Source of the DNA: an uncultured Clostridia bacterium
GTDB taxonomy: Bacteria > Bacillota > Clostridia > Oscillospirales > Acutalibacteraceae
NCBI GenBank assembly: GCA_905235625.1
Contig: CAJOLX010000002.1
Location: 1-64,000, forward strand
Length of the DNA stretch: 64,000 nt
Reading direction: 5' to 3'
Part shown: in pieces, positions 2,830-46,355 of the stretch
Layout of the letters: every line of letters begins with the position of its first letter
How positions within the stretch are numbered: position 1 is the stretch's first letter
Position numbers and translations under genes: made by a program
The notes under the pieces: model-generated
What the model saw: the letters and a program-made list of their open reading frames with translations, nothing else
Databases searched by the model: none
Told to the model about the DNA's origin: nothing

Positions 2830-2860
2830 ATCATCGAAAACAATGTAGGATGTGATTGTA

Positions 2861-4141
2861 ATGATATATAAAAAGAGAATAGCCGACAGTCTTCTTGAAC
2901 TGAAGCTTGAGGCTTTCGGCGCAACTTTGATTGTTGGCCCTAAAGGTTGTGGCAAAACAACTACCGCAAAGCAAAAGGCAAAAAGTGTAATTGAATTTCA
3001 GGATGAAAACGAAAGAGAAAACTATCTTCTTATTGCAAACACGCATCCGTCCGATCTCCTGAAAGGTCCCAAACCTATATTATTTGACGAATGGCAGGAT
3101 GCGCCCAAAATATGGGGAACTGTCAGAAAAGCGTGCGATGACAGCGGCGAAGTGGGCCAATACATTCTGACCGGGTCAAGCTCCAATACCGTTAAAACAC
3201 CTCATACAGGAACATTGAGGATTTCAAGACTGAAAATGTTTCCTATGAGCCTCTATGAAAGCGAGGAATCTAACGGAGAGGTGTCATTATCTGAATTATT
3301 CGATCATCCGGATTCTTTTGACGGATGTCATTCAGATATGTCTATTGATGACATAAAATATGCTATTTGCAGAGGCGGCTGGCCGGGTAGTTTGAAAGGT
3401 TCTTCACGAAAAGCTCAACTTGCAATAGCAAAGGATTTATTTACACAAACATGTGAAGTGGATATATCAAATATTGATGATACTAAACGAAATCCATTAT
3501 TGGCACGCACAATTTTGAAATCTTATGCAAGAAATATATGCACTCTTGCCGAAACAAAAACTATTATCGGCGATGTGGTTTCAAACATCGAACTGACAAA
3601 ACCCACCTATTATGACTATATTGCTGCTCTTGAAAAACTAATGATAATTGAAGATGTTGACGCATGGTGCCCGGCAATCAGATCAAAAACAGTCATCAGA
3701 GCGTCCAAAAAACGTAATCTTATAGACCCCTCCATTGCCGTGGCCGCTATGGGATTATCTCCGGAGTATTTTGACAGGGATTATAAAACTCTCGGCTTTT
3801 TGTTTGAATCTTTATGTATACGTGATTTCAAAATCTACTCTTCCGCACAGGACGGATATATGTCTTATTATCGCGACAGATATGGACTGGAAGCTGACGG
3901 AGTTTTACATCTTGATGACGGCAGATATGCCCTTATTGAATTCAAACTCGGGCAAAGCGAGGTTGAAGAAGGCGCAAAGCATCTTTGCAAAATCGAATCT
4001 CTTGTTAAGGAATTCAACAAAAAAGAAAAACAGTGTCCGCTCCGCTTGCCCGATCTGAAATTGGTTATAACCGGAACACAGTATGGTTACAGGCGCGATG
4101 ACGGAGTATTTGTAATTCCGATTGGATGTTTGAAAGATTAA
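2861..4141 (+). CDS. AAA ATPase with DUF4143-type C-terminal domain
   Basis: Cytoplasmic ATPase of 426 residues. Walker A GPKGCGKTT is at residues 26-34; a Walker B-like LFDEWQDAP is near 74-82; a sensor-like YILTGSSS follows. The C-terminal third carries the nuclease-like DUF4143 core, EADGVLHLDDGRYALIEFKLG, where E/D...E-x-K resembles a PD-(D/E)xK site. The central part ends in a winged-helix-like region (TYYDYIAALEKLMII). This family is widespread in gut bacteria, often in many copies, and its role is unproven; toxin-antitoxin or defence roles have been suggested. I chose ATG 2861 because AGGA at 2847-2850 gives a ten-base spacer, while GTG 2852 would touch it. It is transcribed with the recombinase 15 bases downstream. 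Confidence 0.8.
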   Translation: MIYKKRIADSLLELKLEAFGATLIVGPKGCGKTTTAKQKAKSVIEFQDENERENYLLIANTHPSDLLKGPKPILFDEWQDAPKIWGTVRKACDDSGEVGQYILTGSSSNTVKTPHTGTLRISRLKMFPMSLYESEESNGEVSLSELFDHPDSFDGCHSDMSIDDIKYAICRGGWPGSLKGSSRKAQLAIAKDLFTQTCEVDISNIDDTKRNPLLARTILKSYARNICTLAETKTIIGDVVSNIELTKPTYYDYIAALEKLMIIEDVDAWCPAIRSKTVIRASKKRNLIDPSIAVAAMGLSPEYFDRDYKTLGFLFESLCIRDFKIYSSAQDGYMSYYRDRYGLEADGVLHLDDGRYALIEFKLGQSEVEEGAKHLCKIESLVKEFNKKEKQCPLRLPDLKLVITGTQYGYRRDDGVFVIPIGCLKD

Positions 4142-4156
4142 AAAGCAGGTGAATAA

Positions 4157-5642
4157 ATGAACGCAGTAATCTATGCCCGGTATTCATCCGACAGTCAGCG
4201 TGAAGAATCTATTGAAGGTCAGATAAGGGAATGCACCGAATTCGCAGAAAAGAATGATATGGTTGTTATCGAGCACTATATCGACCGTGCTTTTTCGGCA
4301 AAAACCGATGATAGGCCCGATTTTCAGCGGATGATAAAGGACAGTGAAAAGCATAAATTTGAAGTAGTAATTGTATGGAAACTTGACCGTTTTGCCCGCA
4401 ACAGATATGACAGCGCAAAAAATAAAAGGATTCTCAAGAAAAACGGTGTTAAAGTAGTTTCGGCAACCGAGCAGATTGCAGATGGCTCTGTCGGAATACT
4501 CATGGAATCAATCCTTGAAGGTTATGCCGAATTCTATTCTGCAGAGCTTTCGGAAAAGATACGCAGAGGTCAGACCGAAAACGCACTCAAAGGCAAAACC
4601 AACGGCGGCGGTGTTCCTTTCGGATATGTGCTCAATTCAGAGCAGCGTCTTGCCATTAATCCCACAACGGCACCTATTGTTCTCGAAATATTTCAGAGAT
4701 ACGCAAACGGTGAAACCAAAAAGGAAATTGCAGCCGATTTAACGGGCAGAGGAATAAAGACAAAAGCCGGCAACGATTTTGTTCCGAACAGTTTCAATAA
4801 AATACTTTCCAACAGGAAATATATCGGCGAATTCAAATATAAAGAAATCGTTTTACCGGACATAGTTCCGGCAATTATTCCCGTGGAATTATTTGAAGCA
4901 GTGCAAAAGCGCCTTGAGAAAAATCATCGTGCACCGGGAAGATTCAAAGCAAAAGAAGAATACCTGCTGACTACAAAATTGTTCTGCGGTAAATGCGAAA
5001 GCATGATGGTAGGCGAAAGCGGAACAGGAAAGTCCGGGGCGAAGCATTATTACTACAAATGCGCAAGCGCAAAGCGTAAACGCGGCTGTGATAAAAAAGC
5101 AATCAAAAAAGATTATATAGAAAACCTCGTTGTAGAGGAAACAACCGAAAAAATTCTGCGCGATGATGTGATTGGAGCGCATTGCCGACGAGATAATAGC
5201 CATACAAGGTCAACCTAATCCAACACTGCTTGTTTTGCAAAAGCAGCTTGATGAGACAGAAAAGGGAATTGAAAACTTTCTTAAAGCAATCCAGCAAGGA
5301 ATAATAACCGAGTCAACAAAGCAGCGCCTTGCCGAACTTGAAAAAGAAAAGGCGGAATTACAGATTTCAATACAAAAAGAGGAACTGTCAAAGTCCCTCT
5401 TAACCAAAGACGGTATTATTCAATACATCAACAAATTTAAATACGGTGACAAGGATTCAATAGAGTATAAACGGAATATAATTGACAATTTTGTAAATGC
5501 CGTTTATGTATTTGACGATCATTTGATTATCGTATTTAATTGCAAAGCCGGCACTAAGCGAGTCCGCCTTTCAAAAGCAAGTGAATTAACCGGTTCGGAT
5601 GTGAACGCCCAAAGTCCACCAGGAAAAATCCGTCCTATTTAG
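4157..5642 (+). pseudogene. Large serine recombinase, frameshifted
   Basis: A site-specific serine recombinase that would read about 494 residues if intact. The N-terminal resolvase domain is present (VIYARYSSDSQREESIEGQ with the nucleophilic Ser, and VVIVWKLDRFARNRYD), followed by the Recombinase domain (GGGVPFGYVLN...ILSNRKYIGEFKY) and the zinc ribbon (CGKCESMMVGESGTG...YYYKCASAKRKRGCDKKAI). Near 5174 one extra G shifts the frame: the first frame runs out at 5218 as a nonsense tail, while the second continues ERIADEIIAIQ with the coiled-coil LAELEKEKAELQISIQ and the usual IIDNFVNAVYVFDD ending. Removing one G from the GG at 5174-5175 restores one reading frame. Either the gene is dead or there is a sequencing or assembly error. 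The coiled coil is lost in the truncated form, so normal integration control would fail. Confidence 0.85.
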
Positions 5643-5653
5643 GACGGATTTTT
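5624..5653 (+). terminator. Intrinsic terminator of the recombinase gene
   Basis: Perfect 13-bp arms 5624-5636 and 5641-5653 with a four-base loop, ending in TTTTT. The recombinase stop codon lies in the loop and the start of the right arm. Confidence 0.85.
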
Positions 5654-5655
5654 CA

Positions 5656-5740
5656 GTTATATTCGCCATCGGCGAGTTATATTGCTATGCAGTTATATTC
5701 GGCTTATGCCGAGTGATATTGCGCTGCGCGCAGTTAAATT
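5656..5740. repeat. Array of mini-hairpins separated by an 8-bp direct repeat
   Basis: Five copies of GTTATATT or one-base variants begin at 5656, 5676, 5692, 5713 (GTGATATT) and 5733 (GTTAAATT). Each interval contains a small perfect inverted repeat of different sequence: TCGCC/GGCGA (5663-5675), TGC/GCA (5683-5691), TCGGC/GCCGA (5699-5712) and TGCGC/GCGCA (5720-5732). The spacer sequence differs each time but its self-complementarity is kept, so structure rather than sequence seems to be selected. Confidence 0.75.
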
Positions 5741-5811
5741 ACTAATATATAATATCACATCAATTAATTAAGCTCATAATTTATATTTTTTATGTTAATA
5801 TTCGCTCAAGC

Positions 5812-5846
5812 AAAAAATCCTGCCGCTTTCGTGACAGGATTTTTTT
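5812..5846 (-). terminator. Intrinsic terminator of the GH43 operon
   Basis: Arms 5812-5822 and 5835-5846 (AAAAAATCCTG / CAGGATTTTTTT) with a short loop. U-runs are possible on both strands, so it can also stop rightward transcription from the recombinase unit. Confidence 0.8.
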
Positions 5847-5868: not shown

Positions 5869-7134
5869 TTACTCCACTATCGGATCTTTGATAAAGTGAA
5901 AAAAGTCAACGCAAAGCTCCGTTCCTTTTTCCGGCTTTAATACGAGGTACAAATCGGCGGTATCCTCAAGCTTATCATCAAAGCGGAAAAAGTCGTTGCG
6001 GCGGCAATACCATTCATAATAATCCGCAGGGTTTTCGATGTTAATTACGCCGAGAAGGCGCCCGTTTTCTGAGCCTATTCTCACCTCGATAACGGCTTTG
6101 CCTCCTTTGCAGAAGTAATCGAGAGAAAAGCCCGTTTTATCCGAAAGATTATGGAATTTAGGATATGACAGCACAGCTTTTTCGGTGCAGGTGACAAGAA
6201 ATCCGAAGAGGCGCTTGCTTTCCTTTTTCTTAACGTTTTCGCCCTTCATATACCACTCGGCTTCTATTCTGTTCCAGTCAGAATTATACTGACCCACTCC
6301 GTATTCAACAATAAGCTGGTCGGTAACGATTTCTCCGTTATCCTTTAAATGGACGTAACAAAGGCCGCTTGAGCGATACATCTCGGTTTGCTCTTTAACG
6401 GTAATCGCCTGAAAAATCTGACCGTTCCACTCACAGAAGCTGCTGTGGTCGATAGTTGATGAAGTGTGGCCGATAAACCGATAAGGGCCGTAAACGCAGT
6501 CCGAAACAGCATAAAATCCGCCGTAGCTGAGATAATACTTTCCGTTAAATTTATTAAGAGAAGCTTTGTCGTCGCCGCAGTGGTCGAGCTCGATTTTTCT
6601 CGGCGTTTCGGCAAAAGAAATCATATCTTCGTTGAGACGCGCGATATAATATCCGCATCCCTCGCCGTAGCAAAATTCGGGGCCGCCGAAAACAAGATAA
6701 AACTCTCCGTCATCATCTTCAAACACAGCCGGATCATATTCTCTCGTTTTTGTCAGAGTGCCGTCAAGCAGAGGCTTGCCGAGCGCGTCTTTAAACGGGC
6801 CGCACGGATTATCCGAAACAGCCACGCCGGTCCTATTGCTGCCGTCGGAAAAATAAAAGTAATATTTGCCGTTTCTTTTCGCAGCATCGACCGCCCAGCA
6901 GGAGTCAGAAGCGCCCATAAAGAAATCTTCGGGATGAACGACGGACTCGAGAGTCCATTTAACCGCATCCGGAGAAGACCATATCTGCCAGTCGTGCATG
7001 ATGAAGCCCCTTGCGTCGGGATTAGCGTCATGGGAGGTGTACAGATATATTTTTCCGTCAAAAATATGAATATGCGGGTCACAGACTCCCCTGCCCGGTA
7101 TTATCGGATTTTTTTGCGAGATAATTTCTTCCAT
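5869..7134 (-). CDS. GH43-family glycosidase-like protein with C-terminal beta-sandwich
   Basis: Protein of 421 residues without a signal peptide, so probably cytoplasmic. It has the five-bladed propeller pattern of glycoside hydrolase family 43: the catalytic-base motif CDPHIHIFDGKIYLYTSHD (Asp19) and the pKa-modulating Asp in REYDPAVFEDDDGEFYLVFGGPEF (Asp134). Where the general acid Glu is expected, in the blade ending NKFNGKYYLSYG, the sequence reads GDDKASLNK, with no Glu directly before Ala-Ser. The last ~110 residues resemble a CBM6-type domain (WYCRRNDFF...LYLVLKP...CVDFFHF). With the GPH symporter 18 bases upstream, it likely acts on imported arabinose- or xylose-containing oligosaccharides, but specificity is unknown. 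Confidence 0.8.
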   Translation of the reverse strand: MEEIISQKNPIIPGRGVCDPHIHIFDGKIYLYTSHDANPDARGFIMHDWQIWSSPDAVKWTLESVVHPEDFFMGASDSCWAVDAAKRNGKYYFYFSDGSNRTGVAVSDNPCGPFKDALGKPLLDGTLTKTREYDPAVFEDDDGEFYLVFGGPEFCYGEGCGYYIARLNEDMISFAETPRKIELDHCGDDKASLNKFNGKYYLSYGGFYAVSDCVYGPYRFIGHTSSTIDHSSFCEWNGQIFQAITVKEQTEMYRSSGLCYVHLKDNGEIVTDQLIVEYGVGQYNSDWNRIEAEWYMKGENVKKKESKRLFGFLVTCTEKAVLSYPKFHNLSDKTGFSLDYFCKGGKAVIEVRIGSENGRLLGVINIENPADYYEWYCRRNDFFRFDDKLEDTADLYLVLKPEKGTELCVDFFHFIKDPIVE

Positions 7135-10321: not shown

Positions 10322-13300
10322 TCAGGATATTTCAATAGGTTTGAGCAAGCCGAAAAGACGCTTGAAGAACGATATGATGACGTTGAAGAATCCTGTCTTT
10401 ACGTCAACCTTTATCGTTGAGGTCAATGATTCAACTTCTTCTCCGTCGGCGTTAACGTAAATCACCTTATAGCTTGTGTCTGATTTAAGCCTGTCGGAAG
10501 TCCAATCAATTGAAGCGGTGCCGTCAACCACATCGGCAGATTTTACAACGTTTCCTTTTTCGTCAACAATGCAAAGTCTTCCGCCTGCCCCGTTTTCAAG
10601 CTTAACTCTTATGCGAACGGAGCCGTTATAATCTATCGTATAATTGGATGAACCTTTTCTGATAGACGTGTTTGCGTCTCCGGCAATAACCGTTCCGTCC
10701 TTTTCATTTATTACTTCATAATAAGGTATTCCGTCACTGTCAAATTTTATGGTGACGCTTCTGCATCGCCAGCCTAAAGGAGCGGGATTTTCAACAATCG
10801 TATACGGGCCGCGCCTGATTATTTGAGTGATAAAGCCTGTGCTTGTGCCGGTTGACGGATCATAAGTTAACGTAACTGTTTCCATTAAAGCGCCTTCGGC
10901 ATCGAATATATCGACGTTTACATTTTCGGGAGGCAGCTCGCCGTCTTTAAGACCATCCCAGACCTTCACAATTTTATCAACAACGAACCTATTGACGATT
11001 TCCCAATGGCCGCCTTGACCGTCATCAACAAACCTTGCGTCTTCAAACTTCCAGCCTGCGGGAATATTATCCTCTATCACGTTCGCTGCGTGAATAATCG
11101 TGCCGCCGACGCTCGTGCCGGTAGCGGGATCATAATACAGCGTTATTCTGCCGATTTCGCTTCCGGCGTTATCAAGAAGAATTACGTCAATATCGGGCGG
11201 AGTATAGCCGTCCGGCATATCTTCCCAAATCTTGACATACCGGCATTCGGTTACCTCCGGCTCATATTTATTGATGATTTCCCAATAACCGCCGTCTTCG
11301 TTTTCAACGAATCTTGCGCTGATGAAAACCCAGCCCGTGGGAACGGGATTTTCAACAATACTGCCGATAGGTCCCGTGTAGAAGCCCGTGCTTACGCCGG
11401 TATACTGATCATAGTAAAGAGGAACGCTGCCTACTACGTTTCCGCTTCCGTCAAGAATATCAACAAAAATCGGGCTCGGAGGCGTTACGCCGTCGGGCAG
11501 ATCCTGCCAGATTTTAACAATCTTGGTTTCGGTTTCGGGAGGAATCCACCTGTTAATAATTTCCCAGTGACCGCCTTCATCATCCTCAACAAACGTTGCG
11601 CTTACAAACGTCCAGCCTGCGGGAACGTTATCTTCTTCTTCTCTTACGTCTGCAGCGGATATATTGGAAATGCCGATGCTCGTGCCTGTTGCCGGGTCAT
11701 AATGCATCGTTACGGTTCCGATAGGATTACCATTGAGATCAAGAAGGGTTATGTCAAAGTCGGGAGGAGTTACACCGTCGGGCAGATCTTCCCAAATCTT
11801 GATATATCTGTACTCTTTCTCTTCGGGTTCATATCTATTGATAATTTCCCAGTGACCGCCTTCATCATCTTCAACGTACGTTGCGCTTACAAACGTCCAG
11901 CCCGTGGGAACGTTATCTTCTCTTACGTCTGCAGCAGGAATAGTTGAATAGCCGATGCTCGTGCCTGTTGCCGGGTCATAATGCATCGTTACGGTTCCGA
12001 TGGGATTACCATTGAGATCAAGAAGGGTTATGTCAAAGTCGGGAGGAGTTACACCGTCGGGCAGATCTTCCCAAATCTTGATATATCTGTATTCTTTCTC
12101 TTCCGGCTCATATTTATTGATGATTTCCCAATAACCGCCTTCATCATTCTCAACGAATCTTGCGCTCACAAACGTCCAGCCTGCGGGAACGTTATTTTCT
12201 CTTACGTCTGCAGCAGGAATAGTTGAATAGCCGACGCTCGTGCCTGTTGCCGGGTCATAATGCATCGTTACGGTTCCGATGGGATTACCATTGAGATCAA
12301 GAAGGGTGATGTCAAAGTCCGGAGGAATTACGCCGTCGGGCAGATCTTCCCAAATCTTGATATATCTGTACTCTTTCTCTTCGGGTTCATATTTATTGAT
12401 AATCTCCCAGTGACCGCCTTCATCATCCTCAACGAATCTTGCGTTCACAAACGTCCAGCCTGCGGGAACGTTATCTTCTCTTACGTCTGCAGCAGAAATA
12501 GTTGAATAGCCGACGCTCGTGCCTGTTGCCGAGTCATAATGCATCGTTACGGTTCCGATAGGATTACCGTCGACGTCAAGCTGGGTTATGTCAAAGTCGG
12601 GAGGAGTTACACCGTCGGGTAAATCTTCCCAAATCTTTACGTATCTGTAATTCTGCTCATCATCGGGATCGCCTTTTTCACTGTTTACAACATCATAAAC
12701 ATAGTAAGAAAATCCATTTTCATCCTGCATTAATATAGGACCGTTAATGGTAGTAGACCATCTTGAGGATGGAGACTCAACAATATTCCAATTGCCCGCC
12801 GGATCGACACCTGTAAAGAAAGGCAAAGTCCAGCCGGTTGAAGAATCCATTGTCATTGTTGTGGAGCCGCCTTCACCGTTAATTTCGGGAGTAGCGGCGT
12901 GACCCTCGTTGCCGAAGTCATCCGTTGCCGTAAAAGTAACAGAAAGTCCGGCCGGATCTATTCCATCCCATTCTTTATGAATTATAAAAAAGTGATCGGC
13001 GTTTGAATTGAATATCCTGAGGGAATTAGTATCCTTATCCCAGATAAAAACAGAAGTGTTATAACCTTGTATTGATATTTCATCAAAGAATGTGCCGCGA
13101 AGCTCCCAATTTGATAATGAATGATTATTGGATACTACACCGTATTGATCTGTGGCATTGTTTAGCAGGGCTAAAAAGCTGTTTGAAAAAAATACCGTTG
13201 CGCTGTAATTATTGGAGCTGTCTAATGTTACTGATTGTGTATTGCCTGCGTCGTGCCATTCAAAAGAAAATGAATGAGGAACAGCGCCGGGTTGACCTAT

Positions 13301-13447
13301 TCCGGAAAAGCTGAGATCTTCCCAGTATTTGGTAACGGTAACAGGCACCCCATCATCTGCGAATGCAGATAAAGTGCCGATAAAAGTGGATGAAATCATC
13401 AGAAATGCCAAAAGCAAAGCCAGATTTTTTCTTAAACTTTTTTTCAT
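10322..13447 (-). CDS. Secreted protein with seven Cna_B-like repeats
   Basis: Large exported protein of 1041 residues. MKKSLRKNLALLLAFLMIS... is a classic signal peptide cleaved after about ALSAFA (residues ~25-30). An N-terminal region of ~240 residues follows, with a first KYWEDL unit. Then come seven repeats of 88-98 residues, each beginning K-I/V-W-x-D/G and ending W-E-I-I/V-N-K/R, the pattern of Cna_B/collagen-adhesin stalk domains. Repeats 1-4 are nearly identical. The C-terminus has a beta-rich domain and ends in a basic, amphipathic FFNVIISFFKRLFGLLKP helix; no LPxTG motif is visible. ATG 13447 was chosen because AAAGGAG lies eight bases upstream (13456-13462). It likely forms a surface stalk or adhesin. 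It stands alone between terminators. Confidence 0.85.
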   Translation of the reverse strand: MKKSLRKNLALLLAFLMISSTFIGTLSAFADDGVPVTVTKYWEDLSFSGIGQPGAVPHSFSFEWHDAGNTQSVTLDSSNNYSATVFFSNSFLALLNNATDQYGVVSNNHSLSNWELRGTFFDEISIQGYNTSVFIWDKDTNSLRIFNSNADHFFIIHKEWDGIDPAGLSVTFTATDDFGNEGHAATPEINGEGGSTTMTMDSSTGWTLPFFTGVDPAGNWNIVESPSSRWSTTINGPILMQDENGFSYYVYDVVNSEKGDPDDEQNYRYVKIWEDLPDGVTPPDFDITQLDVDGNPIGTVTMHYDSATGTSVGYSTISAADVREDNVPAGWTFVNARFVEDDEGGHWEIINKYEPEEKEYRYIKIWEDLPDGVIPPDFDITLLDLNGNPIGTVTMHYDPATGTSVGYSTIPAADVRENNVPAGWTFVSARFVENDEGGYWEIINKYEPEEKEYRYIKIWEDLPDGVTPPDFDITLLDLNGNPIGTVTMHYDPATGTSIGYSTIPAADVREDNVPTGWTFVSATYVEDDEGGHWEIINRYEPEEKEYRYIKIWEDLPDGVTPPDFDITLLDLNGNPIGTVTMHYDPATGTSIGISNISAADVREEEDNVPAGWTFVSATFVEDDEGGHWEIINRWIPPETETKIVKIWQDLPDGVTPPSPIFVDILDGSGNVVGSVPLYYDQYTGVSTGFYTGPIGSIVENPVPTGWVFISARFVENEDGGYWEIINKYEPEVTECRYVKIWEDMPDGYTPPDIDVILLDNAGSEIGRITLYYDPATGTSVGGTIIHAANVIEDNIPAGWKFEDARFVDDGQGGHWEIVNRFVVDKIVKVWDGLKDGELPPENVNVDIFDAEGALMETVTLTYDPSTGTSTGFITQIIRRGPYTIVENPAPLGWRCRSVTIKFDSDGIPYYEVINEKDGTVIAGDANTSIRKGSSNYTIDYNGSVRIRVKLENGAGGRLCIVDEKGNVVKSADVVDGTASIDWTSDRLKSDTSYKVIYVNADGEEVESLTSTIKVDVKTGFFNVIISFFKRLFGLLKPIEIS
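10688..12649 (-). repeat. Seven tandem ~279-bp coding repeats
   Basis: Repeat boundaries from the protein: R1 12649-12371, R2 12370-12092, R3 12091-11813, R4 11812-11528 (two extra codons), R5 11527-11246, R6 11245-10982, R7 10981-10688. R1-R3 are exactly 93 codons and near-identical at DNA level; R5-R7 are strongly diverged. This gradient suggests recent unequal exchange at the N-terminal side. Confidence 0.85.
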
Positions 13448-13515
13448 CAAGAAATCTCCTTTCATCTTGAAATAGACTCTGAGTAATGCTTTTGCGATGG
13501 ATAACGGTGATTAAC

Positions 13516-46279: not shown

Positions 46280-46355
<76 letters not shown>

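Follow-up and report, generated by a model that had tools for sequence, protein, structure and literature searches.

The window, a stretch of 64,000 nucleotides from an uncultured Clostridia bacterium, contains a short hairpin array next to a large serine recombinase gene that is broken by a frame change. The N-terminal part of the recombinase (Resolvase PF00239, Recombinase PF07508 and Zn_ribbon_recom PF13408) is encoded on the plus strand at positions 4157-5218, and the C-terminal part follows on the same strand in another frame at 5172-5642. Taken alone the C-terminal part has no Pfam match, and it aligns with recombinase homologues at two other loci, L022 and L146. The last codons of the gene run through a tRNA-like 3' end, GTCCACCA (5614-5621, plus strand), and half of a terminator hairpin at 5623-5654, which has a perfect 15-bp stem (5623-5637/5640-5654) and is of the kind usually found to the left of the element described here. 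The same GTCCACCA occurs in the tRNA-Ala of locus L009 and at the end of the L146 homologue, and CTCCACCA takes its place in L022. A tRNA body belonging to GTCCACCA was not found in the window, where ARAGORN predicts only a tRNA-Thr at 46280. Directly upstream of the recombinase gene lies a gene for an AAA_14/DUF4143 ATPase (2852-4141), perhaps cargo of the same element as the recombinase. A second hairpin with a T-run (5812-5845) separates the remnant of the array from a convergent gene (5869-7134), and farther along the minus strand a 1047-aa open frame (10322-13465) contains several near-identical repeats (YRYIKIWEDLPDG..) and by eye resembles a secreted or surface protein.

The array consists of 8-bp units on the plus strand, GTTATATT at 5656-5663, 5676-5683 and 5692-5699 and GTGATATT at 5713-5720, with perfect palindromes between and after them: TCGCC-ATC-GGCGA (5663-5675), TGC-TAT-GCA (5683-5691), TCGGC-TTAT-GCCGA (5699-5712) and TGCGC-TGC-GCGCA (5720-5732). 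Their stems are 3 to 5 bp long when the outer T-A pair is counted. A sequence-only reading had described five repeats separated by four palindromes at 5656-5740, and its coordinates and sequences are borne out. Four of its five repeats are real units; the fifth, GTTAAATT at 5733-5740, occupies the place of a degenerate centre (5733-5750) which in other copies has the form AGTTTnnGGCG..ATATA, and is therefore not counted as a unit. Nor does the feature stop at 5740, since a remnant of an inverted right array, AATATCAC, is found on the minus strand at 5751-5758. AATATCAC is the reverse complement of GTGATATT, and the remaining units of the right half are missing. Judged against other copies, the window copy still has its left half, with a degenerate centre and a single right unit, most of the right half being lost. 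The pattern GTTATATT-N5..16-GTTATATT occurs twice in the window versus 0.00 times expected from 100 shuffles, and 33 times genome-wide versus once for a reversed-pattern control, which argues that the window array is not due to chance. RNA folding of 5620-5780 gives z = -5.5, with the terminator inside the folded stretch.

The sequence-only reading knew of no named feature with this design, yet the motif is in part a named one, the Gut-1 RNA (Rfam RF01706). The window copy matches the whole model (1-77) with 48.8 bits (E 3.6e-7) at a gathering cut-off of 50, and the same genome (G000) has 21 Gut-1 matches, three of which exceed the cut-off (53.7, 52.4 and 50.7 bits). The suggestion that the array could belong to a family of small repeats was well founded, as it has dispersed relatives in its own genome and in others. 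BLAST of 5600-5800 against its own genome gives 23 matches, and discounting four that consist of the terminator stem alone, read on the other strand, leaves 19 places with the window included. The Gut-1 model matches 44 of 60 genomes, the genome of the window among them, and none of 14 control genomes over the cut-off, the signal in E. coli staying below it. One pattern scan of GTDB genomes returned 102 stretches with an array; the 80 titles listed are all Clostridia, Clostridiales, Oscillospiraceae, Ruminococcaceae, Ruminococcus, Eubacterium or Christensenella assemblies. Many of the stretches come from ruminants, the listed titles naming goat, sheep, cattle, yak and deer as well as other samples. 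In its own genome there is also a second array type, with ATGATGTT between the hairpins (C46:13168, C51:3151 and C58:2740), and the C58 copy follows the plan of the GTTATATT element.

An origin of the array from phages or plasmids was rejected. The exact pattern has no match in viral contigs, a narrow test in that the pattern fixes the first hairpin; phage records give one partial match, the unannotated and unverified faecal contig MT835815, and the sole plasmid match covers 40 bases inside the tRNA part of the query. By eye MT835815 holds a complete tRNA-like gene, a terminator, a GTTATATT array and a gene resembling that of a four-helix-bundle (4HB) protein, and this contig, filed as phage, may be bacterial.

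The plan of the complete element emerges from 206 arrays of at least three units, parsed from the 102 GTDB stretches and the copies in the genome of the window with left and right halves counted apart. In its full form a terminator hairpin comes first, then four 8-bp units with palindromes between them, next a centre and finally a second array in inverted orientation; four units stand on each side in 116 of 184 array pairings with both orientations counted. The centre is the reverse complement of the first unit plus the first hairpin arm. Among 40 Gut-1 matches of relatives, hand-picked from the match list and mostly the best of their genome, 28 have a centre that agrees with its own first unit in 9 or more of 11 letters, versus 110 of 1,294 cross-comparisons with a different first unit. 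The repeats themselves vary in these loci (GTGAAAT, ATGATAT, GTGATAT and others). The right halves of both copies at L009 match RF01706 on the other strand (43.1 and 36.8 bits), and by this sequence comparison the Gut-1 motif is only one half of the element. Small genes that by eye are Nudix-like, XRE-like or GNAT-like lie 3' of the right array at L023, L024, L034, L047, L090, L094 and L099, and such accessory genes apparently have their own promoter.

The genomic location of the arrays is distinctive. Of 122 distinct left arrays, 37 are preceded at a distance of 31-55 nt by the end of a tRNA or tmRNA gene, and 16 tRNA isotypes plus tmRNA are represented. Six others have a T-loop remnant recognized by a regular expression, eight lie too near an end, and 71 show neither. 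Into this last class fall some right halves read in the wrong orientation, arrays that follow protein genes and some tRNA-like CCA remnants missed by the regular expression. Around the 40 picked Gut-1 matches, a tRNA or tmRNA gene is found within 60 nt in 15 and a T-run directly before the match in 28. With 37 of 122 left arrays directly behind a tRNA or tmRNA gene, the arrays do not as a rule follow serine recombinases, a point that the sequence-only reading had put forward for checking.

Occupied and empty sites can be compared at one pair of loci, L134 (genome G021) and L180 (genome G019), which is the single clean case. The flanks of these two are 89-90% identical on both sides, and L134 is about 550 bp longer. 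Its additional DNA starts directly behind the T-run of the host terminator and consists of an array, a 4HB gene and its own terminator, after which the sequence is the same as in L180. In L134 the array is related to Gut-1 but diverged, with GCTATATT, GTTAAATT and GCTAAATT units, and is not of the GTTATATT form. Beyond T-runs on both sides, the pair shows no clear target-site duplication. L180, without array and 4HB gene, would be the older state if L134 gained them, and a deletion in L180 would look alike. Behind tRNA-Gly(gcc), an array follows the tRNA directly in three of 30 loci of the genus as judged by eye (L155, L162 and L168), and the array at L162 as well as the array plus 4HB gene at L168 lie between the tRNA and the gene that directly follows it in L160, L163, L170, L173 and L178. 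Neither tRNA-Arg nor groEL loci yielded a clean empty site for a GTTATATT copy, the relatives there being too distant; 12 of the relatives' 30 groEL ends are readable, and none of these has an array in the 150 bases covered. Dispersed copies together with occupied and empty orthologous sites, the two marks of a MITE-like element, are thus seen in the dispersal within the genome of the window and in the pair L134/L180.

Several arrays are preceded by palindromes that copy the end of the host gene. In front of the arrays at L095 and L091, the tRNA 3' end and terminator are repeated in inverted orientation, forming a palindrome that ends at C56|G57 of the T-loop (35 bp and perfect in L095, 32 bp with 4 mismatches in L091). 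At L042, L077 and L103 the palindrome includes the stop codon of a protein gene and is perfect over 20 bp in L042 and L077; the host gene in L077 and L103 is groEL according to its C-terminal sequence. Inverted copies of the gene end were not seen at the 12 readable groEL ends among the 30 loci of relatives. Of 24 incomplete copies of tRNA 3' ends (22 direct, two inverted), 21 start within -6 to +5 of C56, the starts being approximate since the extension tolerates mismatches, and this clustering suggests a break or copy boundary at the T-loop. Partial tandem copies starting near the T-loop are present at L009, L010, L013, L016, L048, L158, L247 and other loci, several of them preceded by a module ending in GCGACGACG; their appearance suggests past integration or copying at the T-loop. 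Copies of the array are also spread by a second process, in which tRNA 3' ends are duplicated.

Perfect palindromes account for 178 of 239 distinct hairpins, so pairing is indeed kept where the sequence differs, as the sequence-only reading had stated; the compensatory selection at the RNA level that it thought likely is not needed to account for the stems. When the pattern-fixed hairpin and stems with more than 40% unpaired cells are left out, 1,420 cells of array stems comprise 1,338 Watson-Crick pairs, 12 G·T, 17 A·C and 53 others. Acceptor stems of tRNAs from the same loci, counted if they had at least 5 of 7 Watson-Crick pairs (n=144; 1,008 cells), comprise 959 Watson-Crick pairs, 44 G·T, 4 A·C and 1 other. 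The proportion of G·T to A·C differs between the two (Fisher p = 2.7e-6, from cell counts that are not independent because the hairpins share descent). Selection on an RNA tolerates G·U on the transcribed strand, and the lack of a G·U excess on either strand of the array stems points to hairpins formed by DNA. The stems are better accounted for by selection acting on hairpins of DNA, or by one arm being copied from the other, than by RNA selection; such copying would also yield perfect stems. The loops were counted in 252 distinct hairpins, with 19 rejected and up to 13 pattern-fixed hairpins included. On the strand running from the outside to the centre, the 160 triloops are 87 TNC, 2 GNA and 71 others, and the 92 tetraloops are 60 TNNC, 1 GNNA and 31 others. 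The opposite strand accordingly carries c(GNA)g and c(GNNA)g loops, which are very stable in DNA; 38 of the 60 TNNC tetraloops read GNRA there and 22 do not.

The protein most closely associated with the arrays belongs to PF05635, the 4HB family of 23S rRNA intervening-sequence proteins. It is encoded at 96 places in 40 of 60 relatives, with no match in G000 and none in the 14 control genomes. At least 9 of the 96 places have a Gut-1 match 136-174 bp upstream on the same strand as judged by eye, where about 0.08 would be expected, and nine is a lower bound because it was counted among the Gut-1 matches listed. The copy number of Gut-1 correlates with that of PF05635 (Spearman 0.66 in 60 genomes and 0.82 in 23 of other genera), the main exception being G000 with 21 Gut-1 matches and zero PF05635. 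The link of the 4HB protein to the arrays is a correlation, and the protein does not belong to the known transposases. A 4HB-like gene stands behind approximately 12 of 112 elements (by eye, one fragment and one frame-broken gene included), and other small genes stand behind some of the elements that lack one. One 4HB protein piece, from L044, was confirmed as PF05635, and a regular expression for 4HB proteins, an insensitive test, recognized 1 of the 40 picked Gut-1 loci. Many 4HB genes have no array upstream; chains of at least four hairpins occur upstream in 9 of 58 and downstream in 3 of 58 versus about 1% in shuffles, as scored with a crude and too insensitive detector after 12 of 70 loci had been dropped.

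In the genomes and loci of relatives that were examined, no recombinase, transposase or reverse transcriptase is tied to the array family. Snap-back synthesis primed by a reverse transcriptase at transcript ends is attractive because the copied palindromes start at terminators. This candidate was rejected, since among the four array-richest genomes RVT_1 is absent from G059, G039 and G047 and occurs once in G046; across the 60 genomes, the copy numbers of Gut-1 and RVT_1 show a Spearman coefficient of 0.12 (0.03 in the 23 of other genera). A Y1/RAYT transposase as the mover was likewise rejected. There is no link in copy number (Spearman 0.15 in 60 genomes and -0.03 in 23 of other genera), G039, G047 and G059 have no Y1_Tnp, and PF01797 is missing from G000, G039, G047 and G059, which have 21, 33, 27 and 48 Gut-1 matches, respectively.

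Taken together, the array in the window probably belongs to a small mobile DNA element, of which it would be a non-autonomous and decayed copy. In full form this element would be an inverted pair of hairpin arrays that enters behind terminators. The complete element would consist of the array pair, sometimes followed by a promoter and a PF05635 4HB gene. Its point of entry would be immediately 3' of intrinsic terminators, with tRNA and tmRNA genes as the most visible examples, and the host terminator hairpin would become the first hairpin of the array. The hairpins would be read as DNA, in the form of a cruciform or a single strand, by the machinery of the element, and the 4HB protein would be the likeliest trans-acting factor encoded by it. 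The plan of the element, its dispersal, its place behind terminators and tRNA genes, the coupling to 4HB genes, the single pair of occupied and empty sites and the lack of RNA-type covariation are observed; movement as a unit, the need for the 4HB protein, the DNA strand used and the enzyme are inferred. In the window, an element with a serine recombinase lies at the tRNA-like end beside this copy of the array, and its recombinase gene is now broken.

From the sequence alone, the array was suggested as the site at which the neighbouring serine recombinase attaches or recombines; the two directly adjoin each other in the window. Such a role is very improbable. The homologue at L022 (62%) is also beside an array, and weak resolvase matches (25-27%) lie somewhere in L034, L089 and L095; yet the remaining loci in the protein search have no recombinase match at E 1e-5. 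The L022 homologue ends in CTCCACCA, followed by a terminator and an array of the other, ATGATGTT type, and for the L146 homologue (55%) the end is GTCCACCA plus a terminator, behind which no array is seen. What the two share is the tRNA-like end and not the array, on which ground the recombinase was rejected as the cause of the array. A tRNA-like CCA closes both homologues, which suggests that the array was already present at a tRNA end when the recombinase arrived there. Its attachment site is most likely the shared tRNA-like end, and the array seems to be a passenger of this site to which the recombinase is incidental. It is also rather doubtful that the arrays are by-products, with palindromes arising by template switching during replication at terminators and multiplied by duplications of tRNA ends without any dedicated mobility. 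The inverted copies of host ends at L095, L091, L042, L077 and L103 and the start of 21 of 24 partial tRNA copies near C56 are what such a process would leave behind. The 12 readable groEL ends show no inverted copies. The process leaves unexplained the conserved units, a centre that repeats unit 1 and its arm (28 of 40), the coupling to 4HB genes and the difference between L134 and L180.

A third alternative, which seems unlikely though less so than these two, is that Gut-1 is a functional noncoding or 3'-end RNA whose structure is maintained by selection and which has been duplicated along with tRNA genes. The publication of RF01706 presents it as a likely noncoding RNA and, in the part of the source available, as one found in the human gut only and with no function stated (Weinberg et al. 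2010, PMC2864571). All four types of Watson-Crick pair occur at the tabulated stem positions, the predicted RNA fold is strong with the terminator included, and on the centre-to-outside strand 38 of the 60 TNNC tetraloops have the GNRA form. Against this, G-U pairs are not tolerated on either strand, and the element is symmetric, so neither strand holds all of the stable loops. Moreover, the array is located past the terminator at which transcription of the tRNA should stop, and the same tRNA is occupied in some species and not in others.

The mobile-element reading can be taken further, though tentatively. The arrays may represent a new kind of mobile element, a symmetric DNA-hairpin array that is moved with the help of the PF05635 4HB protein and inserts at the T-runs of terminators. 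At some sites the target hairpin would act as a primer for copying the sequence upstream of it, and an inverted copy of the 3' end of the host gene would remain. On this view Gut-1 RNA would be one half of the element, misread as an RNA, and the GTGAAAT, ATGATAT, GTGATGT and ATGATGTT types would be sister families built on one plan. If Gut-1 and PF05635/S23p do belong to one mobile DNA element, the puzzles that surround them could be tested jointly, and intergenic sequences of a kind common in Clostridia of the rumen and gut would be explained. The inverted copies of tRNA 3' ends are a concrete trace of how such palindromes arise.

Group IIC introns insert behind terminator hairpins, and the arrays share this insertion place with them. 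They differ in that the arrays have no link in copy number with reverse transcriptases, and canonical copies have no room for an intron ORF between the two arrays. REP and REPIN sequences with their RAYT (Y1) proteins are similar in being short, dispersed, intergenic palindromes in an inverted arrangement, whereas the hairpins here form arrays instead of single tagged palindromes and show no such link with Y1_Tnp. REP palindromes carry a GTAG or CGTC tag at their foot according to the portion of PMC3733652 available, and by that rule no tag is seen by eye at the feet of the hairpins, where the units read GTTATATT or GTGATATT. Intervening sequences of 23S rRNA resemble the element in joining a small PF05635 gene to hairpin-rich DNA at a gene for a stable RNA, with an S23p/PF05635 ORF, a scattered distribution and, as far as the accessible text goes, no known function (PMC4990558). 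Here a PF05635 ORF of this type lies downstream of a subset of copies and has no match in G000. In contrast to a position inside a 23S rRNA helix, the copies with a readable location follow a tRNA or tmRNA gene, a terminator or the end of a gene, and they take the form of a two-sided hairpin array. In the literature searched, Gut-1 was met only in PMC2864571 and this hairpin-array element was nowhere described. The left array corresponds to the Gut-1 motif over the whole model, the window copy scoring just below the cut-off and three other copies in the same genome above it (50.7 to 53.7 bits), and its sources include ruminants and other samples besides the human gut. In contrast to the published RNA, it lacks RNA-type covariation and forms half of a larger inverted element of Clostridia, often from ruminants, that lies behind tRNA terminators and is sometimes accompanied by 4HB genes.
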